DNA from: Streptosporangiales bacterium
GTDB lineage: Bacteria; Actinomycetota; Actinomycetes; Streptosporangiales; Streptosporangiaceae
Length of the DNA stretch: 32,424 bases
Assembly: GCA_017882645.1 (NCBI GenBank)
Contig: JADGPC010000019.1
Span: 1 to 32,424, forward strand
Direction: 5' to 3'
The position numbers were made by a program, and so were the translations under genes. The notes under the pieces are model-generated. The model was not told the DNA's origin. It made no database searches and saw only the letters and a program-made list of their open reading frames with translations. This document shows, one piece after another, positions 2,969 through 15,883 of the stretch. Positions within the stretch are counted from its first letter, which is position 1; every line of letters begins with the position of its first letter.

Positions 2969-3346
2969 ATGAGGGTCTTCTTCGTCTCGGACATTCACGG
3001 CTCGGAGACGTGCTTCCGCAAGCTGGTCACCGCCGGGAAGTTCTACGGGGCCGACCTGCTGATCATGGGCGGCGACCTGGCCGGCAAGGAACTGGTCCCC
3101 GTTGTCGAGCATGCAGGCTCATGGACGGCGCGATTCCGCGCTACCGAGTTCACCGGGCGGCGGGTGTTCCTGCGCGCCGTCGATGTCTTCCATATCGACA
3201 GCGGCCTGGTGCGGCATGAGTCCTCCTGGTACGGCGACGGCTGGCTGCGGCAGCGACTGGGCGAGCAGGCAGGGCAGCCTGACCTGATCCCGCCGTCGCT
3301 GCCGGTGACCCCGCCGCTCGGCGCCTCGGGGATGCGGTTCCGTTGA
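2969..3346 (+). CDS. Short chimeric protein: N-terminal calcineurin-like metallophosphoesterase stub fused to an unidentified C-terminal segment
   Basis: [46 protein letters not shown] is a classic phosphoesterase N-terminus, but later metal motifs are absent. TGA at 3344-3346 overlaps the TTG start of the next gene. Confidence 0.55.
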
Positions 3347-4515
3347 CCGCGCGGATTGACTGGGTGCGCGACAGCTGCCGGCTGCTGTCGGGGATCTCGG
3401 CGGAGTTCGCCAGGACCCGCCCGTTCGACGGGCTGACGATCGGCACCGGGATACACCTGGAGCCGAAGACCGTGGCCCTCATCCTGACCCTGGCCAGCGG
3501 CGGGGCGCGGATGATCTCGACCGGCAACCTGTCAAGCACGCAGGCCGAGACGGTCGGCTACCTGCGCCACCGGTGCGTGCAGGTGATCGGCGAGACCACC
3601 ACGGACCGGGCGCGGCATGCGGCCGACCTGCGCGAGGTGATCGGCGAGAAACCCGGCCTGCTCCTGGACAACGGCGGTGACCTGTTCCTCGGCTACCTCA
3701 GCGATCCCTACCCGGGGCTGCTCGGCGGCACCGAGGAGACGACCTCGGGCCGGACGCGGCTCAGGCCGCTGGCCGGCCGGCTGGACGTGCCGGTGCTGGT
3801 CATCAACGACAGCCCGATCAAGCAGTTCGCCGAGAACCGGCACGCCGTCGGGCTGAGCGTGCTCGAGTCATACCTGCGGATCACTAACCGGATGACCAAC
3901 GGCCGCCGGGCCGTCGTGTTCGGCTACGGTGCCTGCGGCAAGGGGATCGCCGCCGCGTTCCGCAGCGCGCACGCGCTCGTGGCGGTCATCGAGACCGACC
4001 CGGTGGCGCGGCTAGAGGCCTGCCTGGACGGATTCGACGTTCCGGCGCGGGATGATGCGCTGCGCGAGGCCGACATCGTGATCACGGCGACCGGCGCCGA
4101 CGCGGTCGTTCGGGGCGCGGATCTGGCAGTGCTGCGGGACGACGTGGTGCTGTGCAACGCCGGTCACTTCCCGGTCGAGATTGCCGTGGACGAACTGGAG
4201 AGCTCGCCGCTGACCCGGCGCCGCGAGGCCGCGGCTGACGGGATCGCGACCCTGCTGCTGGATGACGGCCGCCGGGTTCACCTCCTCGCCGGCGGTCACA
4301 TGGTCAACCTGGCTGGTCCCCGGCCGCTCGGGAACTCGATCGAGTCCATGGACCTCGGGTTCGCCTTGCAGGCCCGCTGCCTGGAAGCGATCGCCAATGG
4401 CTCGGTCGGCGCCGGTCAGGTCGTCGTGGCCGTGCCGAGGTTCATCGACGAGCGGGTCGCCCGCGCGTTCCTCGACGCTTACGGCACCTCGGTCACGCGG
4501 CCCGCGGACGCGTGA
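3343..4515 (+). CDS. S-adenosylhomocysteine hydrolase-like NAD-binding protein (diverged paralog)
   Basis: [48 protein letters not shown] and [10 protein letters not shown] align with SAHH motifs; 390 aa, lacks the SAHH C-terminal tail. Confidence 0.8.
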
Positions 4516-4717: not shown

Positions 4718-5734
4718 GTGAGCGCGCCGACGCTGGCCGCGCCGGAGCGGGTGGACGCGGCGGGCACCGCGGACATGACGGAGCTGGCCAGGGTCGCTTG
4801 CGGCCGGTACGGGATCTCGCCGGACAGCAGGCTGCACCTCTATCCGCTGACCGAGAACTGGACCTACCGGCTGCAGGCCGGGTCGTCGGCTCCGGTCGTG
4901 CTGCGCATCTACCGGCCCGGCGGCCGCTCGCCGGCCGAGATCATGTCGGAGCTCGCGTGGATGAACGCCATCGGAACGGGCGCCCGGTCGCTGGTACCCG
5001 CGGTCATCCCCACCCTCACGGGCAGCCAGGTGCTCGAGCTGAGCCGCGCCGCGCCGCTCGCCCCCTGTTACTGCGTGCTGTTCAGCTACGCGGCCGGCCG
5101 CGAGCCGGCCGAGGAGGAGCTGGCGGCCTGGTTTCCCGAGCTCGGCGCGATCACGGCGCGACTGCATCAGCACGCCAGGTCGTGGAACCGGCCGCCGTGG
5201 TTCCGGCGCCCGCGCTGGGACGTGAGCACGACGCTCGGCGGCCGGCCCCACTGGGGACCGTGGCAGTCGAGCGTGACCGATGCCGAGCAGCTCAGGCAGC
5301 TGGAGCGCCTCGCCGAGGTGGTCACGGCGCGACTGCGCGCGTTCGGCGAGGGAGCGGACAGGTTCGGCCTCGTGCATGCCGACCTGCGGCTGGCGAACCT
5401 GCTCGTCGAACGGGACCGCATCACGGTCATCGACTTCGAGGACTGCGGCCTCAGCTGGTACCTGTATGACCTCGCTTGCGCGCTCACCTTCAACGAGGAC
5501 CGCGGTGACGTCCGCGAGCTCGTCGCGCTGTGGGTCGACGGATACCGGCAGGTCGAGCGGCTATCGGCCGAAGACGAGAAGGAGATCGACACGTTCCTCA
5601 TGCTCCGCCGGCTGATGCTGACCGCTTACGCGGGCCTGCGGCACGACACCGAGCTGGCGGCGGAGATGCGGGCGAGCGGCTATAACGCGCGGACGTGCGC
5701 GATCGCCGAGCCGTACCTGAGCCGCTTCGGCTGA
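4718..5734 (+). CDS. APH-family phosphotransferase/kinase
   Basis: Catalytic loop and metal motif GLVHADLRLANLLVERDRITVIDFEDCGLSWYLYDLA; GTG start. Confidence 0.85.
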   Translation: MSAPTLAAPERVDAAGTADMTELARVACGRYGISPDSRLHLYPLTENWTYRLQAGSSAPVVLRIYRPGGRSPAEIMSELAWMNAIGTGARSLVPAVIPTLTGSQVLELSRAAPLAPCYCVLFSYAAGREPAEEELAAWFPELGAITARLHQHARSWNRPPWFRRPRWDVSTTLGGRPHWGPWQSSVTDAEQLRQLERLAEVVTARLRAFGEGADRFGLVHADLRLANLLVERDRITVIDFEDCGLSWYLYDLACALTFNEDRGDVRELVALWVDGYRQVERLSAEDEKEIDTFLMLRRLMLTAYAGLRHDTELAAEMRASGYNARTCAIAEPYLSRFG

Positions 5735-5794
5735 GAAACGGCTGCCCGCGCCCGGATGACCTCTGACCGCGACCTGCTGGCGCGGCCGTTGGCA

Positions 5795-5823
5795 TTGGCG
5801 TGGGCGGGGAGCTCAGCTAGGAT
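5795..5823 (+). promoter_or_regulatory. Putative promoter TTGGCG-17-TAGGAT upstream of the FAD oxidoreductase
   Basis: TTGGCG 5795-5800, TAGGAT 5818-5823, about 38 bp before the GTG at 5861. Confidence 0.4.
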
Positions 5824-5860
5824 TTGGGCATACCATTTCTCTCGCAGGTGAGGTCCGCCG

Positions 5861-7090
5861 GTGCCTGGTCCGCGTGACGCCGAGATCACGATCATCGGAG
5901 GCGGGGCGGTCGGCGCCGCGGTCGCCTACTTCCTGGCCAGGAACGGCTGGCGTGACATCCAGCTGCTCGAAGGCCGGGGGCTGTGCGAGGCGACTAGCAG
6001 CCAGGCGGCCGGCTTCGTCGGCCAGGCCAGGCCGACCGTCGAGCGGGCGCGGCTGACGATGGCAGCCGCCGACGTGTTCCGCCGTTTCGAGGCCGACACC
6101 GGCTATCCGACGGACTTCCGCGAATGCGGGGCGGTCCGGCTGGCCCTTTCCGATGCATCGGTCCGCGAGCTGCGGCAGATCGCCGAGACAGCGGAAAGCA
6201 CCGGCCTGCCGGTCGAGTTCCTGACCGACGCGCGGCTGCGCGGCATCTTCCCCGTGCTCGAGCGCACGGAGGGGGTCAAGGCCGCGCTGTGGTCGCCGAC
6301 CGACGGCTATCTGCAGCCCAACAGCCTCGTCACCGCCTACGTCAGCGCCGCGCGGGACCTGGGTGTCACGGTCGCCACGCACGCCGCCGTGACCGGCATC
6401 GGGGTGCGAGGCGGCGCGATCGAGTCGGTCTCGACCGATGCGGGCAGCTGCCGGACCGATCGGGTGATCATCGCGGCCGGGCCCTGGTCCGCGGCGGTGG
6501 CCAGGCTGGTCGGCCTGGAGCTACCGATCGTTCCGGTGCTGCACGAGTACTTCGTCACCGAGCCGGTTCAGGGCTGGCACGCCGGCCTGCCCTGCCTGCG
6601 CATCCCCGAGGTCCAGGTCTACGCGCGCGGCGAGAGCGACCGAGTGCTCTGCGGCGGTTTCGAGAACCGCGGGACGAGCATCGATCCGCGCGAGGTGCTG
6701 GTGACGTCCAGGCTGGCCGCGCGACCCGACTGGGATGTGCTCGGCGGCTTCGCGGCCAGCCTGAGCGCCTTCGCGCCCGCGGTCGCGGCGGCCGGAGTTG
6801 CCGCCACCTTCCAGGGCTGGCCCGCGTTCAGCCCGGACGGCAGGTTCATCGTCGGGCCGGTGAGCGCGATCGGGGGCCTCGCGTTCGCCGCGGCCTGCAA
6901 CGCCCACGGCGTCTCCGGCTCGGCGGGACTCGCCATCAGCCTGGTCGAGAGCCTGAGCGGCGATCCGTCGGGTTACGTGCGGTCGCTGAGCCCGGACCGG
7001 TTCATCCCCAGGACCTGGTCCTGGGAGGACGCGCGCCGGGACGCGCAGGCCGTCTACGAGAACTACTATCCGATGCCGGTCGCCTCCTAA
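5861..7090 (+). CDS. DAO-family FAD-dependent oxidoreductase (glycine/sarcosine/D-amino-acid oxidase-like)
   Basis: ITIIGGGAVGAAVAYFLA Rossmann GxGxxG; C-terminal FNAHGVSG-like 'ACNAHGVSGSAGLAI'. Confidence 0.88.
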   Translation: MPGPRDAEITIIGGGAVGAAVAYFLARNGWRDIQLLEGRGLCEATSSQAAGFVGQARPTVERARLTMAAADVFRRFEADTGYPTDFRECGAVRLALSDASVRELRQIAETAESTGLPVEFLTDARLRGIFPVLERTEGVKAALWSPTDGYLQPNSLVTAYVSAARDLGVTVATHAAVTGIGVRGGAIESVSTDAGSCRTDRVIIAAGPWSAAVARLVGLELPIVPVLHEYFVTEPVQGWHAGLPCLRIPEVQVYARGESDRVLCGGFENRGTSIDPREVLVTSRLAARPDWDVLGGFAASLSAFAPAVAAAGVAATFQGWPAFSPDGRFIVGPVSAIGGLAFAAACNAHGVSGSAGLAISLVESLSGDPSGYVRSLSPDRFIPRTWSWEDARRDAQAVYENYYPMPVAS

Positions 7091-7095
7091 CCGCG

Positions 7096-7860
7096 TCAGA
7101 TCGCCGGGTGCATGGCCGTCAGGCCGCCGTCGACGTTCAGCGTGATGCCGGTGATGTAGGTCGCCCCGCTGCCGCACAGGAACGAGACGGCGGCCGCGAC
7201 CTCGGCCGCCTGGCCCACCCGCTTGAGCGGGCTGATCCGGCCCAGCGAGTCCTCGCTGAGCGTGGCGACGAACGGCTCGCTCAGCGGCGTCAGCACCCAG
7301 CCAGGGGCGACGGCGTTGACCAGGATGCCGAGCGGGGCGAGCTCGACGGACATCGACTTCGTCAGCGAGATGATCGCCGCCTTGGACGCGTTGTAGTGGG
7401 CGAACTCGGCCTCGGACAGCTGCCCGTTGGTTGAGGCGATGTTGACGATCCGGCCGCCCGTGCCCTGGTCGCGCATCGCCCGCGCGGCGGCGCCGCCGAT
7501 CAGGACGGGGCCGCGGACGTTGATGTCCATCAGCGCGTCCCAGGTATCGGCCGTGAAGTCGACGAACGGCACGGGGCTGTAGACGCCCGCGTTGTTAACG
7601 AGGACGTCGATCCGGCCGAGATGCTCGCGGACGGCCGGGACCAGGCGGGCGCAGTCGTCCGCCGAGCCGACGTCGGACCGCAGGCCAAGGACCTTGTCCT
7701 GGCGGGTCTGGTCCTGACCGGCGAGCCGGGCTGCCGCTGCGCTGACCTCGCCGGCGTTCCTGGCGCAGATCGCCACGGCGTAGCCGTCCGCGAGCAGTTG
7801 CTCAGCGCAGGCGTAGCCGATGCCCTTGCTCCCTCCGGTCACCAGTGCGACCTTGTCCAC
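7096..7860 (-). CDS. Short-chain dehydrogenase/reductase
   Basis: TGGSKGIG, NNAG, YNASK catalytic motif and the VDGG C-terminal motif. Confidence 0.92.
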   Translation of the reverse strand: MDKVALVTGGSKGIGYACAEQLLADGYAVAICARNAGEVSAAAARLAGQDQTRQDKVLGLRSDVGSADDCARLVPAVREHLGRIDVLVNNAGVYSPVPFVDFTADTWDALMDINVRGPVLIGGAAARAMRDQGTGGRIVNIASTNGQLSEAEFAHYNASKAAIISLTKSMSVELAPLGILVNAVAPGWVLTPLSEPFVATLSEDSLGRISPLKRVGQAAEVAAAVSFLCGSGATYITGITLNVDGGLTAMHPAI

Positions 7861-7897
7861 AGTGCCTCCTCGGGTGCCCTGAATGCGCGTCCGCGCG

Positions 7898-8905
7898 CTA
7901 CTGAGAATGAGCGCCGGCGCTGGCCGCGGCGATCAGCGGCTCCAGCGACGGATCCGCCAGCCTGGCCCTGGTCCAGTCCCAGCGTGACGAGGCCTCCTGC
8001 CAGTAATCGAAGCCCTCGGCGGGGGAGTCGGTCAGCAGCGCGTTCATGCCGACGAACAGGAGCGACCAGGTGTACTGGGCCGCGATCCCGAACAGGCTGG
8101 CCCGCGCGTACTGCACCGGATCGTGCGAGCCGAAGTAGGCGGTGCAGGCCGTCCGGATCTGGTCCGGGTCGTAGTCGCCTTCCATCGCCAGGTCGCCCAC
8201 GTCGAACATCGGGTCGTTCATCCCGCTGAAGTCGTAGTCGATGATCCGGATCCGGCCGTCGTCCATGATGTTCTTGGCCAGCAGGTCGTTGTTGCTCGGC
8301 ACGGCAGGCAGCGCGTTGAGCGCGAGGGCGGCCTGGATCCTGCGGATGGTCGGCAGCCAGTCCCTGATGCCCGGCGGGCAGGCCAGCGCATGCTGGTCGA
8401 TCAGGGCGAGATAGTCGTCGAGGAACTTCCAGATCACCGTGGTATTGCGCATCGGCGGGGCCTTGACGTGCAGATCGCGGATGGCGCGGCCGATGCGCGG
8501 GATGTAGTCAGGCCTGGCCAGGTCCGGGGTGTCCAGGGTCCGTCCGTCGATGTACTCGAGCACGAGCGCGGGTATGTCCGGCAGTGACTGGACGACCCGG
8601 GCGCCGACACCCGACGCGCCCGCGGCGACCGTGTTCGCGATCAGGTCGCCGATCGGGATCATCAGCCCGAAGTCATCCATCTCCTGGGTGAGGAACTTGA
8701 CCACGTACCGGTCGCCGCCGTCTGCGCTGACCGCGTAGGTGACGTGCGCCAGGCCGCCGAACAGCTGACGCCACTCAAGCCGCCGGCCGCGCAGCAGGCC
8801 GGCCGCCGCCGCGACCTGCGCCATCTGGCTGGCGAATCGCCGGTCCGCGGCGCTGGCCACGGGCTGGCTCGCCGCTGCGGTCCCGGGATCGCTCGCTGCG
8901 GTCAC
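7898..8905 (-). CDS. Choline/ethanolamine kinase-like (LicA-type) phosphotransferase
   Basis: NNDLLAKNIMDDGRIRIIDYDFSGMNDPMFDVGDLAMEG; 1 nt from the upstream permease stop, so probably co-transcribed. Confidence 0.83.
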   Translation of the reverse strand: MTAASDPGTAAASQPVASAADRRFASQMAQVAAAAGLLRGRRLEWRQLFGGLAHVTYAVSADGGDRYVVKFLTQEMDDFGLMIPIGDLIANTVAAGASGVGARVVQSLPDIPALVLEYIDGRTLDTPDLARPDYIPRIGRAIRDLHVKAPPMRNTTVIWKFLDDYLALIDQHALACPPGIRDWLPTIRRIQAALALNALPAVPSNNDLLAKNIMDDGRIRIIDYDFSGMNDPMFDVGDLAMEGDYDPDQIRTACTAYFGSHDPVQYARASLFGIAAQYTWSLLFVGMNALLTDSPAEGFDYWQEASSRWDWTRARLADPSLEPLIAAASAGAHSQ

Positions 8906-8906
8906 G

Positions 8907-10418
8907 TCAGGGCTCAGGGTCGTACTGGTCGATGGCCAGCGGGTGGTCGTGGATCCGCCTGGACCGGAACGCGTAGAACACCACGCCGACCAGCAGCGGC
9001 AGGCCGATGATCAGCCAGGCCATCGGGGCATTCTTGAGGAAGAAGCCGCCGGACGTGCCAGAGATCTGGTTGTAGGTGGGGTTGGTAGCCGGGCGCGGCC
9101 ACAGCAGGTCGAGTGCGGTCAGCCCGGTGCCGACGACCGCGACGATGTTCACCGCGATGCCCCAGCGCCCGAGCGAGAACTGGCCCTTGACCTTCGGCCA
9201 GCCCCGGAAGCGGTAGATCAGGGTGACGCTCATGATCAGGAAGTACGCCAGGTACATCGCAGCGGTCGCGCCGCCGACGATCGAGGAGGTCTTGGTGGTG
9301 AACACGAAGACCGGGACTAGGGACAGCACGCCGAGCAGCAGGACCGCGGCCCACGGCGCACCGTCCTTTAGTGTCTTGGACCACGTGGCCGAGAAGGGCA
9401 GCTGCCCGTCCCTGGCCATGCCGTAGATGTGCCGGACCGCGCCGGTGAACATGACGTTGGTGGCGACGATCAGCCCGATGGAGACAACGACGAGGAAGAG
9501 CTTGAAGACACCGACGGGCAGGTGCGCGGTGATCGCGTTCTCGGCGGGCACCCCGCCCAGCATCGCGGCCTTCATGTCGGGGATCGACGGCGTCAGGCAG
9601 ACCAGGAACAAGAAGCCCGCGACGATCGCGAACAGGTAGGCGCCGATCACGGCACGCGGTGCGTTGCGCCCGGCGTCGACGGTCTCCTCGCCCAGCGTGC
9701 CGCCATTCTCGAACGTGTACAGAACCCAGAGCGCGTTGAACACCCCGGCACCGATGAACAGCGGGAAGACGTTCTTGAGGCCGCTGAGCATCTGGACGGT
9801 CGCGGCGCCCGAGCTCGTTGTCGTCACGGTTGCGGTCTGGGTCAGGTTGCCGAAGTGCTTGGCGCCCAGGATGAAGGTCACGAGGCACACGATCGTAACG
9901 ACCGTCAGCTCAAGCCCCATCGCCCATTCGGTAATGCGGCCGAGAGTGCCGATGCGGGCGACATTCCACACCACCGCGATGACCGCGGCGATGACGATGA
10001 TGACCGCGTCGGTCGTGAAGCTGGGCGCCAGGTTGAACAGCGGATGGATCAGCACCGTCAGGCTCGCGTAATAGGCGGTCATCAAGGGGAACAGCGCGCC
10101 GGCGTAGACCCAGCCCATCCACCAGCCCACCCGCTTGCCGGCCAGGATCGTCGGCCACTGGTACATGCTGCCGGCGAACGGGTATTTGGACGCGAGCTCG
10201 GCGATAACCAGGACCATCGCGCCGACGCTGACGGCGACCAGCGGCCAGCCCCAGAACTCGGCGCCGCCGACGCTGGACATAGAGAACCCGTACAAAGAGA
10301 AGAGCCCGGCGAACACGCCGACGCCCGCGAAGGTGAGCGCGCCGTTGGTGAGGGCCGTCAGGACTCTGGTGAGCTTGCCGGCGGCAGTGAACTGCTGTGA
10401 GGTCTCGACAGCTCCCAT
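8907..10418 (-). CDS. APC-superfamily amino acid/amine permease
   Basis: About 12 hydrophobic segments; N-terminal 'GALTFAGVGVFAGLFSLYGFSMSSVGGAEFWGWPLVA', typical of APC transporters. Confidence 0.85.
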   Translation of the reverse strand: MGAVETSQQFTAAGKLTRVLTALTNGALTFAGVGVFAGLFSLYGFSMSSVGGAEFWGWPLVAVSVGAMVLVIAELASKYPFAGSMYQWPTILAGKRVGWWMGWVYAGALFPLMTAYYASLTVLIHPLFNLAPSFTTDAVIIVIAAVIAVVWNVARIGTLGRITEWAMGLELTVVTIVCLVTFILGAKHFGNLTQTATVTTTSSGAATVQMLSGLKNVFPLFIGAGVFNALWVLYTFENGGTLGEETVDAGRNAPRAVIGAYLFAIVAGFLFLVCLTPSIPDMKAAMLGGVPAENAITAHLPVGVFKLFLVVVSIGLIVATNVMFTGAVRHIYGMARDGQLPFSATWSKTLKDGAPWAAVLLLGVLSLVPVFVFTTKTSSIVGGATAAMYLAYFLIMSVTLIYRFRGWPKVKGQFSLGRWGIAVNIVAVVGTGLTALDLLWPRPATNPTYNQISGTSGGFFLKNAPMAWLIIGLPLLVGVVFYAFRSRRIHDHPLAIDQYDPEP

Positions 10419-10482
10419 CCGCTGAACCGTCCCTTCTCTCGATTGGGTGGTCCATTTGATGGATCAGCAGGACTTTTGGCGC

Positions 10483-10516
10483 ACTGTAACGTAGCCCCAC
10501 GAGGTCTGACAAGACC
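10483..10516 (-). promoter_or_regulatory. Putative permease promoter (TTGTCA-18-TACAGT, minus strand) with inverted repeat GGTCT-N4-AGACC over the -35
   Basis: Inverted repeat 10503-10516; -35 complement 10507-10512; -10 complement 10483-10488. Confidence 0.45.
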
Positions 10517-10683
10517 CCGCAGGCAGGATGGTCTCAGGGTGCACCGCGGCTAGCGCGGCAGGTCGTGCCGCGGTTACGCTGACGGTCGATATGGTGCGCC
10601 CAAATGGCGACAGTCAGGCCGGGTCCCCGAGGCTCGGGGCGGCCGGGCGGCGGGCGCGTGCGGTACCAGCGGAAGGCCGACCA

Positions 10684-13143
10684 ATGCCCACCAATGACCT
10701 CCCGCAGCGAGCGCAGGTCGTCATCGTCGGCGGCGGTGCCGTCGGCTGCAGCGTCGCCTACCACCTGGCCAAGCTCGGCTGGACCGACGTGGTGCTGATC
10801 GAGCAGGGACAGCTGTCCTGCGGGACGACCTGGCACGCGGCCGGTGTCGTCGGCCAGCTCCGGACGCATCCGTCCCTGACCAGGCTGATGATCTACAGCA
10901 GCAGGCTGTACGAGGGCCTGGAGGCGGAGGTCGGTCTCGGCACCGGATGGAACCCGTGCGGCGCGCTCTGGGTCGCGGCCTCCGCCGACCGGATGACGCA
11001 GCTGCGCAGGACCGTCGACCTGGCGCGCGCACAGGGTCTGGAGGCGCATGACATCTCGGTGGCCGAGGCGGGGGCGAGGTGGCCGCTGATGCGAACCGAG
11101 GACCTGGTCGGCGCGATCTGGCTGCCGAACGACGCCAAGGCCAACCCCGCCGACCTGACCCAGGCGCTGGCGAGAGGCGCCAGGCGCCTGGGGGTGCGGA
11201 TTGCGGAGCGAACAAAGGCTCTCGGCTGGGTCGTCGACTGCGGCCGGGTCACGTCCGTGGCCACCGACCGCGGCGACATCGAGTGCGAGTACGTGGTCAA
11301 CTGCGGCGGGCAGTGGGCCAAGGCTCTCGGCGGGCAGGTCGGGGTGACCGTCCCCTTGCAGCCGGCCGAGCACTACTACATCGTCACGGAACCGATCGGC
11401 GGGCTGGACAAGGCCGCGCCCACGCTGCGCGACCCTGACGGGTATACCTACTTCAAGGAGGAAGTCCGCGGGCTGCTGATGGGCGGCTTCGAGCCGGACG
11501 CCAAGCCGTGGGTCGCCTCCGACGAGATTCCCGAGCCGTTCGAGTTCCAGCTGCTGCCTGAGGACTGGGACCAGTTCGACATCCTGATGCGCAACGCCGT
11601 GCACCGGGTGCCCGCCATGGAGAGCGCAGGGGTCAAGAAGTTCTACAACGGGCCCGAGAGCTTCACGCCGGACCACAACTTCATCATGGGCCTGGCGCCC
11701 GAGCTCGATAACTACTTCGTGCTGGCCGGCTTCAACTCCTCGGGCATCGCGTTCGCCGGCGGGGCGGGCCACGCCCTCGCCCAGTGGATCGTCGCCGGGG
11801 AGCCCGACCTCGATCTCAGCCCGGTCGACATCCGCCGGTTCGCGCCCATGCAGGGCAACAAGCGATGGCTGCGCGAGCGGGTCAAGGAAATTGTTGGCCT
11901 GCACTTCGCGATGGCCTGGCCGAACCGCGAGCCGCAGAGCGCCCGCGGTATTCGCCGATCCCCGGTGCATCACCTGCTTGAGGCGCACGGGGCGTGCTTC
12001 GGGACCAGGATGGGCTGGGAACGGGCGAACTGGTTCGCCCCGGCCGGCACGAAGCCGGTCGTGGAGTACGGCTGGGGACGGCAGAACTGGTTCGGCCACA
12101 GCGCGGCCGAGCACCTGGCGGCGCGCGAGGGCGTCGCGCTCTTCGATCAGACCTCGTTCGCCAAGATCGCGGTCCGCGGCGCCGACGCGGAGGCCGCCCT
12201 GCAGTTCCTGTGCTCCAACGACGTCGCGGTCCAGCCGGGCCGCACGGTCTACACGGCGCTGCTGAACGAACGCGGCGGCTACGAGGCCGACGTGACCGTG
12301 ACCCGCGTCCGGTGGAACGAGTACCTGCTGGTGACCAGCAGCGCCCAGGGGGTGCACGACCTTGACCTGCTGCGCCGGGGGGGTCCTGCCGGCCTGCGGG
12401 TCGAGTTCTTCGATGTCACCTCGTCCTACGCGGTGCTGTCGGTGATGGGCCCGCAGTCCCGGGCGCTGCTCGGCGGCCTGTCCGGTGACGACTTCTCCGC
12501 GGCGGCGTTCCCGTTCGGCCACAGCCGCGAGGTCGACCTTGGCGGCCTGACCGTCCGCGCCACCCGGCTGACCTACGTGGGCGAGCTGGGGTGGGAGCTG
12601 TACATTCCGAGCGAGTTGGCGGTGGCCGCGTTCGAGCGGCTGACCGATCCCGGCAATCCGATCAGGCCGACGCTGGCCGGCTACTACGCGATCGAGTCCC
12701 TGCGGCTGGAGAAGGGGTACCGCGCTTTCGGCCGGGAGCTCGGCCCGGACACCTCGCCGCTCGAGGCCGGCCTCACGTTCGCCTGCAAGCTGGACACGGA
12801 TATCGCCTTCCGCGGCCGCGAGGCAGTGGAGCGGCTTCAGGCCGAAGGCGTCGCCCGCCGCCTGGTGAGCCTGGTGGTCTCCGATCCTGATGCCTACGCG
12901 TGGGGCGGCGAGCTGCTGCTGCGAGATGGCGAGCCAGCTGGGTTCGCCAGCTCGGCCGCCTACGGTCACACGGTCGGCCGGACGGCGCTGCTCGGCTATA
13001 TCGAGCGGCGTGACGGCGGCAAGGCCGACCGTGACTGGCTGGGCCGGGGTACCTATCAGGTCGCCATCGGCGGCGAGCGCTACGACGCCAGCGTGTCCCT
13101 GCGTCCTCCCTACGATCCGGCCGGGGCCCGGATCCGGGCCTGA
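10684..13143 (+). CDS. Dimethylglycine/sarcosine dehydrogenase-like FAD oxidoreductase with C-terminal GcvT (aminomethyltransferase-like) domain
   Basis: VVIVGGGAVGCSVAYHLA; covalent-flavin type motif CGTTWHAAG; C-terminal GcvT-like half (YGWGRQNWF...VALFDQTSFAKIAVRG...). ATG at 10684 preferred over the 10528 start in the track. Confidence 0.88.
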   Translation: MPTNDLPQRAQVVIVGGGAVGCSVAYHLAKLGWTDVVLIEQGQLSCGTTWHAAGVVGQLRTHPSLTRLMIYSSRLYEGLEAEVGLGTGWNPCGALWVAASADRMTQLRRTVDLARAQGLEAHDISVAEAGARWPLMRTEDLVGAIWLPNDAKANPADLTQALARGARRLGVRIAERTKALGWVVDCGRVTSVATDRGDIECEYVVNCGGQWAKALGGQVGVTVPLQPAEHYYIVTEPIGGLDKAAPTLRDPDGYTYFKEEVRGLLMGGFEPDAKPWVASDEIPEPFEFQLLPEDWDQFDILMRNAVHRVPAMESAGVKKFYNGPESFTPDHNFIMGLAPELDNYFVLAGFNSSGIAFAGGAGHALAQWIVAGEPDLDLSPVDIRRFAPMQGNKRWLRERVKEIVGLHFAMAWPNREPQSARGIRRSPVHHLLEAHGACFGTRMGWERANWFAPAGTKPVVEYGWGRQNWFGHSAAEHLAAREGVALFDQTSFAKIAVRGADAEAALQFLCSNDVAVQPGRTVYTALLNERGGYEADVTVTRVRWNEYLLVTSSAQGVHDLDLLRRGGPAGLRVEFFDVTSSYAVLSVMGPQSRALLGGLSGDDFSAAAFPFGHSREVDLGGLTVRATRLTYVGELGWELYIPSELAVAAFERLTDPGNPIRPTLAGYYAIESLRLEKGYRAFGRELGPDTSPLEAGLTFACKLDTDIAFRGREAVERLQAEGVARRLVSLVVSDPDAYAWGGELLLRDGEPAGFASSAAYGHTVGRTALLGYIERRDGGKADRDWLGRGTYQVAIGGERYDASVSLRPPYDPAGARIRA

Positions 13144-13166
13144 CTATGGGGCCGGGGCAGGCTGGC

Positions 13167-13943
13167 TCATCTGGAACTCTGCACCTCGCCATGGGCCCAG
13201 GCGATGACCGTCGTGCGGTCGCCGACAAACAGGTCGGTCGAGTACTCGACCGGCTTGTCGTCGAGGTCGAACGCGACCCGCTCGATGGCCATCAGCGGGT
13301 CGCCGACCTTGATGCCGAGCAGCTCCGACTGCTCATGGTTGGCCAGCACCGCGACCATGCGCTCGATCGCCTTGACGCACGTCACGCCGTACCGGTTGAT
13401 GAGCAGGTCATAGATGCTGTCGTCGAGTGGCTGGGACAGCAGGTCGGGCGCGAGCGACACCGGGATCCGCGCGGTCTCCAGCGAGATGCGGACCTCGTCA
13501 GCCAGGCGGATCCTGACCACCTCGTACACGAGCGTGCTGGCCGGAAGGTGCAGCGCGCCGGCTACGGCCTCGTCGGCCGGCAGCATCCGCGCGGACACCA
13601 CGTGAGCACCCGGCCGGAAACCCTGAGCACGCAGGTAAGCGGGGATCCCGGCCAGGTAGGTGAAGTCGATATCGACCCGCGGCCGGTTGACGAAGGTGCC
13701 GCCGCTGCGTCCCCGGCGGCGGTGCACGGCACCCTCGTGCTCCAGCCGGTCGAGGACCTGGCGTACGGTGGTCCGGCTCACGCCAAGCTGCATGGCGAGC
13801 TCGCGCTCGGTAGGCAGCCGTCCGTCCTCGCCCAGCCTGCCGCCGGAGATCAGCTCGTGGATGCGCTGTGCTACCGAGTCGCGAATGGTGCGGGAGTTCT
13901 CGATTCTGGTGACCGATCCGGCCTCGGCCTGACGGGCGCTCAT
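13167..13943 (-). CDS. GntR-family (HutC/UTRA-type) transcriptional regulator
   Basis: wHTH 'GRLPTERELAMQLGVSRTTVRQVLDRLEHEGAVHRRRGRSGGTFV' and a UTRA-like ligand domain. Confidence 0.9.
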   Translation of the reverse strand: MSARQAEAGSVTRIENSRTIRDSVAQRIHELISGGRLGEDGRLPTERELAMQLGVSRTTVRQVLDRLEHEGAVHRRRGRSGGTFVNRPRVDIDFTYLAGIPAYLRAQGFRPGAHVVSARMLPADEAVAGALHLPASTLVYEVVRIRLADEVRISLETARIPVSLAPDLLSQPLDDSIYDLLINRYGVTCVKAIERMVAVLANHEQSELLGIKVGDPLMAIERVAFDLDDKPVEYSTDLFVGDRTTVIAWAHGEVQSSR

Positions 13944-13978
13944 AGCGCAACGATAGACGCACGCTGGCCTGAGTCCGC

Positions 13979-14863
13979 ATGTCGTCCCCGTCCCCGGTCA
14001 CCGCGCTTGCCAGGGAGAATGCCGTGCGGATCCTGCTGACCAACGACGACGGATTCGATGCCGAGGGCATCCTGGCGATCCGTGCGGCGCTGGCCGCCTG
14101 GTGCGACAGCGTCGTGACCATTGCCCCGGACGAAGATTGCAGCGGTTTCGCGCGCAAGTGCACGTACTCCAGGCCGGTCGTGGTGACTCGCGTCTCGGCC
14201 GGCCCGCACCCCGTCTACCGCTGCGACGGCACGCCGACCGACTGCGTGCGGGTCGGGCTGCTCGGCGGCCTGGCCGCCGCTGCCGACCTCGTCGTCAGCG
14301 GCATCAATCACGGCGCGAACCTCGCCGATGACGTCACCTATTCGGGCACGGTAGGCGCGGGCCTGGAGGCTGCCATTCTCGGCACGCCAGCGATCTGCCT
14401 GTCACAGCAGACGCCGACCGGCTCCTTCTCGGTCAACTATCAGGAGGATCTGGGAAGCGCCGGGCTGGCCTACGACTTCGGTTTCGCGGCCGCGCACGGC
14501 GCCGCGCTCGCCCGGTCGGTGATCGGAGCCAGGCCCGCCGAGCCGGTGGTGCTCAGCGTCAACTATCCCGCCCGCCGGAGCGGTGCCGGCCGCCCCAGCG
14601 TGCTCACCAGGGCGGGCCGACGTGACTACCCGAGGGCGGTCGAGACCGGTCCGGCCGACGCCGACGTGTACCGGATGTACCTGTTCGGAGAGCCGGACGA
14701 GGTCATCCCCGAATCCGACGCGTCATTCGGCACCGACATCGGTGCCTTGCGGGCCGGCTACGTCTCGCTGACTCCGCTGTCGTTTGCTGTCGAGCTCGGT
14801 GACCTGTCCCCCGGCTTCCAGGCCTTCATCGCCCGCCTGAGCGAGACCTTTCCGGTCGGCTAA
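13979..14863 (+). CDS. surE: SurE-family 5'/3'-nucleotidase
   Basis: RILLTNDDGFDAEGI, PDEDCSGF, SGINHGANLADDVTYSGTVGAGLEA; an alternative GTG start at 14024 gives the canonical N-terminus. Confidence 0.88.
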   Translation: MSSPSPVTALARENAVRILLTNDDGFDAEGILAIRAALAAWCDSVVTIAPDEDCSGFARKCTYSRPVVVTRVSAGPHPVYRCDGTPTDCVRVGLLGGLAAAADLVVSGINHGANLADDVTYSGTVGAGLEAAILGTPAICLSQQTPTGSFSVNYQEDLGSAGLAYDFGFAAAHGAALARSVIGARPAEPVVLSVNYPARRSGAGRPSVLTRAGRRDYPRAVETGPADADVYRMYLFGEPDEVIPESDASFGTDIGALRAGYVSLTPLSFAVELGDLSPGFQAFIARLSETFPVG

Positions 14864-15883
14864 CGCCTGACCCGTGGACTCGCGGACGACCAGGGACGTT
14901 CTCAGTACCCTGCTCTTCGGCGGTCGGCCGGTGGCGACGTAGTCCTGGAGCAGCTCGGCCGCTGTCTCGCCGAGCTCCCTGGCCGACAGGTTCACGGTCG
15001 TCAGCGGCGGGGCAGTGAACTCGGAGTACGGCAGGTCGTCGAAGCCCACCAGCGACAGCTCGCCGGGAACCGGCACGCCCAGGGTTCGGCAGGCGTGCAG
15101 CACCCCGTACGCGTACAGGTCGTCGCCGCAGACGACGGCGGTCACGCCCGCCGACTTCCAGTCGGGCCATCTGGCCAGGAAACCGCGGAAGGCCGCCTCC
15201 ATCGTCAGCTCGTCCAGGACGAGGTCGTCCGCGGCCAGCCCGGCGCCTAGCCGGCGCAATCCGGTTTCCAGCCCCTGCCGGCGATGCTGAAGCGAGGCCT
15301 TGTCCCGGCTGACGCCGACATAGGCCACTCGCCGGTGCCCGAGCGCGAGCAGGTAGTCGGCCAGCTCGCTGGCCGCGTGCCGGACATCCAGGTCGATGCT
15401 CGGGAAGGACCCGGCCGACCCGTCGGAATCGAGAATCACCGTCGGGCAGGTCGGGACGACCCGTTCGAGCAGCCTGGTTCCCGGGCTGGCCAGGATCAGG
15501 CCGGCCAGGTTGCCGGCCAGCGCCCGCTGCACGGTGCTCAGGTCATAGTCCTCGCCGCCGTGCGGCATCAGCACGGTCACCGACAGGGCGCTGTCGAGCT
15601 TGCGGGCCAGGCCGTCGAGCACCATGGAGAAGAACGGGTTGGTCGGGTCCGGGCTCACGAAGCCGATGGAGTCGAGCTCTCCCCGCGCCAGCGCGCTGGC
15701 GGTCGTGTTGAGCTGGTAGCCGAGCTCGCTCGCCGCGGCCAGGATCCGCTCGCGGGTCTCGGCCGCCACCCGGCCCTGGTCCTTGCCGTTGATGACCAGG
15801 GAGACCGTCGACAGCGAGCGGCCCGCTAGCTCGGCCACATCCCGCGCGGTCGCGCGGCGGGAGCGGGCAGGACGGGTCGCCAC
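14723..15883 (-). CDS. LacI-family transcriptional regulator
   Basis: HTH 'ATARDVAELAGRSLSTVSLVINGKDQGRVAAETRERILAAASELGY' and a periplasmic-binding-like core; 3' end overlaps surE antisense. Confidence 0.9.
   Translation of the reverse strand: MATRPARSRRATARDVAELAGRSLSTVSLVINGKDQGRVAAETRERILAAASELGYQLNTTASALARGELDSIGFVSPDPTNPFFSMVLDGLARKLDSALSVTVLMPHGGEDYDLSTVQRALAGNLAGLILASPGTRLLERVVPTCPTVILDSDGSAGSFPSIDLDVRHAASELADYLLALGHRRVAYVGVSRDKASLQHRRQGLETGLRRLGAGLAADDLVLDELTMEAAFRGFLARWPDWKSAGVTAVVCGDDLYAYGVLHACRTLGVPVPGELSLVGFDDLPYSEFTAPPLTTVNLSARELGETAAELLQDYVATGRPPKSRVLRTSLVVRESTGQALADRKGLAQAGDEGLEAGGQVTELDSKRQRSQRDVAGPQGTDVGAE

Follow-up and report, generated by a model that had tools for sequence, protein, structure and literature searches.

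The window examined here, a 32,424-nucleotide stretch of DNA from a Streptosporangiales bacterium, carries a gene whose predicted product has the fold of SAH hydrolase (SAHH) and substitutions at several catalytic positions. This combination raises the question of whether the protein is a housekeeping SAHH or a paralog with another substrate or chemistry, as the original prediction proposed. As far as can be judged from sequence, the paralog is probably a new nucleoside-processing enzyme and not a housekeeping SAHH.

The gene, its fold and its active site

Residue numbers follow the human AHCY sequence and were cross-checked with the residue roles described in PMC4647836. The gene and the codons of its predicted active site lie at the following positions:

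3343..4515, forward strand: open reading frame of the SAHH-fold paralog, 390 amino acids, TTG start
3454..3468, forward strand: HxExK base-recognition motif, H38-L-E40-P-K42, where H38 corresponds to human H55
3670..3672, forward strand: codon of N110 (human D131 replaced by Asn), invariant across the family
3820..3837, forward strand: K160-Q-F-A-E164-N165 (human K186 to D190-N191), with Lys and Asn kept and Asp replaced by Glu
4165..4170, forward strand: H275-F276 (the human H301-F302 molecular gate), kept
4324..4356, forward strand: base-binding loop P328-L-G-N331-S-I-E-S-M-D-L338, with a two-residue insertion and H353 replaced by N331

The TTG start and the stop codon of the preceding open reading frame overlap, and the start position matches the starts of homologs, which begin M-T-x-R-I-D/E-W-V. 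The high-GC codon composition (0.73, 0.51 and 0.91 at codon positions 1, 2 and 3) indicates that this is a genuine gene. Pfam detects AdoHcyase_NAD (PF00670, 124 bits) and AdoHcyase (PF05221, 47 bits) and, together with the fold match, reveals that both the substrate-binding and the NAD-binding domains are present. The AlphaFold2 model has a mean pLDDT of 91.6, and its best match in the PDB is the SAHH of T. maritima (3x2f; TM 0.91, 38-39% identity), with the P. furiosus enzyme and further SAHHs or S-inosylhomocysteine hydrolases (SIHHs) among the other near structures. The coordinates and SAHH fold assigned earlier to this gene are thus borne out. The protein scores 277.4 bits against the equivalog model TIGR00936, below the cut-off of 497.6, and clears the more permissive threshold of NCBIfam NF004005 (306.8 bits, cut-off 275). 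Since the latter model names adenosylhomocysteinase, carrier genomes may be annotated with two SAH hydrolases.

Alignment places H38, E131/E132, T133, K160, N165 and H275 at the positions of human H55, E155/E156, T157, K186, N191 and H301, all of which are kept. It places N110, E164, V169 and N331 at the positions of D131, D190, C195 and H353, all of which are changed. In mouse SAHH, D131 has been assigned as the donor and acceptor of the C4ʹ proton, and D190 and E156 as ligands of the 2ʹ-OH (PMC4647836). The prediction had named all of these retained residues except T157, together with the changes at D131, D190 and C195, and on these points it agrees with the alignment. Its reading of the GHPSFVMSNSF segment as lost does not hold, because this segment aligns to P328-L338 after the two-residue insertion, with N331 in place of H353. 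The prediction also overlooked that GIHLEPKT constitutes the HxExK motif, a signature of enzymes that prefer hypoxanthine over adenine (PMC10978960). The change of STQDHAAA to STQAETVG is correct for the window protein and varies within the family. The KPDHYRY tail is indeed absent, and this is not distinctive, as archaeal-type SAHHs naturally lack a C-terminal tail (PMC10978960) and those of the Thermotoga type do so as well. Tail loss and the C195 change were both dropped as signs of a new function, being common to archaeal/Thermotoga-type SAHHs or failing to discriminate the paralog from them.

A family separate from SAHH

The substitutions are a property of an entire protein family. Among the 35 members tabulated, from Actinomycetota, Chloroflexota and Alphaproteobacteria, the D131N, D190E and H353N changes are each found in all 35, as are the HxExK motif and the retained residues H55, E155, E156, T157, K186, N191 and H301. 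The gate Phe (human F302) is nearly invariant, and the other sites compared are uniform. Relative to the enzymes of T. maritima, P. furiosus and M. maripaludis, the family also has Ser at T159. The D131N change extends to 82 of 82 aligned members, while all 56 non-family rows tabulated carry Asp at this position and every SAHH reference group retains it.

In a tree built by a quick search with SH-aLRT support and without bootstrap, the 35 members form a single clade (SH-aLRT 100) whose very long stem measures 2.87 changes per column. This clade falls outside every SAHH included, namely the canonical long enzymes, the archaeal-type enzymes of Chloroflexota and the short actinobacterial paralogs. 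Profile scores are likewise bimodal, with family members at 448-626 bits (the 448-bit value is from a truncated gene) and all other proteins at or below 269.

One pattern scan recovered 182 related loci, and the number of genomes with the family is well above one hundred. Of the two patterns scanned, one (LDNGGDLF) contained the Asn of D131N, and an unbiased profile search of approximately 1,080 genomes was run to check for bias toward Asn. Those of its clear family matches that were rechecked all carry LDNGG and KQFAEN, and those having the relevant segment all carry GNSIE or GNTIE. The Asn is therefore not an artefact of the scan pattern. The family was found in three of 398 genomes from the phylum of the window (its own genome included), two of 387 in the alphaproteobacterial class sample and six of 301 Chloroflexota genomes, the latter two counts including the genome on which each search was centred. 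It is common in Rhizobiaceae, and annotated plasmid records also gave matches, at which no gene was annotated. By its conserved sequence features, this is a large bacterial family with the SAHH fold that has lost one key catalytic acid. The open-access literature searched, which leaves most subscription journals outside, yielded no earlier description of the family and nothing direct on SAHH-like proteins in nucleoside catabolism.

A separate, full-strength canonical SAHH is encoded in 10 of the 10 family genomes tested, and the relatives G002 and G021, both with the paralog, also carry one. No second SAHH match was present in the MAG of the window, which is 78% complete and consists of 536 contigs. 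Tree position, residue changes and the canonical SAHH in 10 of 10 genomes together uphold the proposal that the protein is a diverged paralog whose active site has changed. Given that the family lies outside the SAHH clades and occurs alongside canonical SAHH, an altered substrate or chemistry is the best reading. To this extent the proposal that the protein is not a housekeeping SAHH stands, whereas the arguments from the missing tail and from the local neighbours fail.

Most genomes in the bacterial family of the window carry a different arrangement, in which canonical ahcY is in tandem with a second, short archaeal-type SAHH that has an HVTxE motif (loci L006-L022, sampled from the family, order and class of the window). 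Gln replaces E156 in seven of these 17 short copies.

Gene neighbourhoods

The locus within the window contains the following features in addition to the paralog gene:

2969..3346, forward strand: open reading frame fused in frame, with residues 1-61 matching a metallophosphoesterase N-terminus and residues 63-125 a SnoaL-like C-terminus
4718..14863, strand not applicable: block of genes between the paralog and the LacI gene, not shared across the family
14723..15883, reverse strand: LacI-family regulator, ortholog of the paralog-adjacent LacI in relatives

At four related loci from G021 and other actinobacteria (L023, L029, L030 and L032), the metallophosphoesterase and SnoaL-like proteins are encoded by separate genes with an APC permease gene between them. 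This arrangement suggests that the fused reading frame arose by a deletion of approximately 2.7 kb that included the permease, or by misassembly. An ortholog of the missing permease is absent elsewhere in the MAG (best match 30% identity). The LacI regulator of the window is 69% identical to that of G021 (L023), where it lies 49 bp from the paralog, and 55-58% identical to the paralog-adjacent LacI proteins of L029, L030, L032 and L036. Approximately 10 kb of unrelated genes separates the window paralog from this orthologous regulator, encoding an APH kinase, a DAO oxidoreductase, an SDR, an APH/choline-kinase-like protein, an amino-acid permease, a dimethylglycine-dehydrogenase-like protein, a GntR regulator and SurE. 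The setting among kinases, oxidoreductases and a permease had been offered as a functional argument, which the homologous loci contradict by lacking these neighbours. We do not consider the intervening genes to be pathway partners, since the regions around homologs do not repeat them and they sit between the paralog and its orthologous LacI. The block resembles an amine-utilisation cluster, and one of its FAD oxidoreductases is DMGDH/GcvT-like. No nucleoside gene adjoins the paralog within the window. By eye, locus L024 of G002, from the same genus, has an apparent permease and an apparent acetamidase/formamidase downstream of the paralog.

Across the family, neighbourhoods were compared by using a simple gene caller, BLAST clustering and family scans. 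Outside the Rhizobium clade, the recurrent partners are a LacI regulator, ABC transporters and nucleoside-catabolism genes. A regulator similar to the LacI of the window occurs at 22 of 52 such loci. Any of eight nucleoside-catabolism genes, including those for cytidine deaminase, thymidine, uridine and purine phosphorylases, uridine hydrolase and ribokinase, is found at 14 of the 52 loci, compared to none of 32 control regions. The controls were drawn from genomes with the family and from related genomes, and comprise 12 regions flanking canonical SAHH and 20 arbitrary ones. The Fisher p value for the contrast, 0.00066, is optimistic because the eight reference genes were picked after the neighbourhoods had been seen; moreover, the 52 loci are partly non-independent (L059 and L175 are apparently one record) and the control DNA is modest, at 587 kb against 900 kb around the paralogs. 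Within the flanks examined, none of the eight genes is present at the other 38 of the 52 loci or at any of 36 loci of the Rhizobium clade.

Cytidine deaminase is encoded no more than 130 bp upstream and in the same direction at seven loci (L034, L035, L037, L047, L049, L073 and L098), and 953 bp upstream at L174, where a purine-nucleoside phosphorylase gene lies in between. In the transporter operon of L034, L035, L037 and L047, cytidine deaminase and the paralog are the sole enzymes among the called genes. Thymidine phosphorylase directly follows the paralog at L098 and L174, a uridine-type nucleoside hydrolase follows it at L064, and uridine phosphorylase is present at L033 and L173. At L062, ribokinase precedes the paralog, and deoxyribose-phosphate aldolase and a uridine-type hydrolase are encoded there as well. 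This nucleoside island also includes thymidine phosphorylase, a phosphomutase, a PfkB-type kinase, a permease and, by eye and with no NCBIfam match, a probable pseudouridine-phosphate glycosidase.

At L052 and about 35 other loci of the Rhizobium clade, the paralog lies beside a LysR-like regulator and, by eye, upstream of apparent glycolate oxidase genes glcDEF. This setting was set aside as a functional clue, given that it represents one chromosomal neighbourhood common to close relatives.

Predicted function and relation to known systems

Our preferred reading, to which we assign a probability of about one half, is that the family comprises NAD-dependent nucleoside-processing enzymes derived from an archaeal/Thermotoga-type SAHH, with a predicted role in nucleoside catabolism. 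The fold, the retained residues, the nucleoside-gene neighbours and the separate canonical SAHH all point in this direction. Counting against it, HxExK is placed for a purine while the neighbouring genes are mostly pyrimidine-specific, the flanks examined show no reference nucleoside gene at 38 of the 52 loci outside the Rhizobium clade or at any of the 36 inside it, and the window paralog has none beside it.

In a possible mechanism, an oxo-base nucleoside resembling inosine or uridine would be bound through HxExK. As the conserved residues suggest, its ribose 3ʹ-OH would be oxidised to a ketone by tightly bound NAD+ with K160 and T133, as in SAHH. The 4ʹ,5ʹ-elimination of a 5ʹ leaving group would then be expected to be blocked, because Asn replaces D131, to which C4ʹ proton transfer is assigned in SAHH. 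Speculatively, the likeliest other outlet for the 3ʹ-ketonucleoside might be loss of the C2ʹ proton, perhaps aided by E164 at the D190 position, with departure of the base from C1ʹ and then addition of water and re-reduction. Such a catabolic, redox-assisted nucleoside hydrolase or lyase, acting in three phyla through transient C3ʹ oxidation and C1ʹ elimination, is a tentative proposal that we consider doubtful. The strict retention of H55 and H301, whose role in SAHH is at the 5ʹ position, would instead fit 5ʹ chemistry. If correct, the proposal would add a third route for cleaving the N-glycosidic bond of nucleosides, besides hydrolases and phosphorylases. Any nucleoside-cleaving or -oxidising activity would be a new reaction for an enzyme that ranks among the best studied of those using NAD, and might account for the use of modified or unusual nucleosides by soil bacteria.

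A serious rival, with a real if minority chance of being correct, is SAHH-type 5ʹ chemistry (3ʹ oxidation, 4ʹ,5ʹ-elimination and water addition) on an oxo-base nucleoside substituted at 5ʹ, for example S-inosylhomocysteine or a 5ʹ-modified uridine, with another residue replacing D131. It would account for the retention of H38, H275-F276, K160, T133 and E132, including the gate and 5ʹ-OH residues, and for a HxExK motif that matches S-inosylhomocysteine-preferring enzymes (PMC10978960), and the nearest solved relatives are SAHHs and SIHHs. It is opposed by the Asn that every member has where all SAHH reference groups retain the Asp positioned for the C4ʹ proton (PMC4647836), and the recurring neighbours seen at the family loci include no genes for methylation, SAM or homocysteine. 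That one catalytic acid and the C-terminal tail are missing could alternatively signify a catalytically dead or regulatory paralog comparable to the eukaryotic AHCYL proteins. This is improbable, as a dead enzyme would have no need for the near-complete invariance of the other catalytic and gate residues across three phyla, and the genes belong to small metabolic operons that also encode transporters and enzymes.

We regard as more improbable still a biosynthetic tailoring enzyme, such as a nucleoside dehydratase of antibiotic synthesis. AgmF is a proven SAHH-like protein of this kind with a different reaction (PMC8599513). However, judged by the description of AgmF, the family lacks the Asp that this enzyme reportedly uses at C4ʹ (Asp129), and its neighbours are transporters, LacI and catabolic enzymes with no recurring biosynthetic cluster. 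Least credible is an ordinary SAH hydrolase of the methyl cycle, even though the paralog is the sole SAHH-like gene found in the 78%-complete MAG and passes NF004005 (306.8 against 275). The failure against TIGR00936 (277 against 498), the separate clade, the altered catalytic residues and the canonical SAHH that coexists in 10 of 10 other genomes and in G002 and G021 all argue otherwise.

The preferred reading, a nucleoside-processing enzyme, can be placed relative to four known systems. The family resembles the SAHHs of T. maritima (3x2e, 3x2f and 5tov) and P. furiosus (7r37) in fold (TM 0.90-0.91, 36-39% identity) and shares with them HxExK, a short C-terminus and H55, E156, T157, K186, N191 and H301. 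These enzymes have D131, D190 and, in the GHP loop, H353, whereas the family has Asn, Glu and Asn, together with a two-residue loop insertion and a separate, long-stemmed clade. The methanogen S-inosylhomocysteine hydrolase (7r3a) is similar in its HxExK motif, predicted hypoxanthine preference and archaeal-type architecture. Unlike the family, it retains D131, as part of the full SAHH catalytic set, and the GHP loop, and it serves SAM recycling, not nucleoside operons.

The short SAHH paralog located beside ahcY in the bacterial family of the window has a similar archaeal-type length and is approximately 37% identical to the family. It differs in its HVTxE motif, in keeping D131 and D190 (and H353 in 16 of 17 copies) and in belonging to a different clade. 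Finally, the angustmycin dehydratase AgmF is an SAHH-derived protein with bound NAD+ and a nucleoside substrate, whose Asp129 has been described as handling the C4ʹ proton (PMC8599513). By that description, AgmF is set apart from the family by Asp129 in place of Asn and by its biosynthetic instead of catabolic context. Both are relatives of SAHH, and the precedent of AgmF, which is no longer an SAH hydrolase, makes a change of reaction plausible among such proteins.
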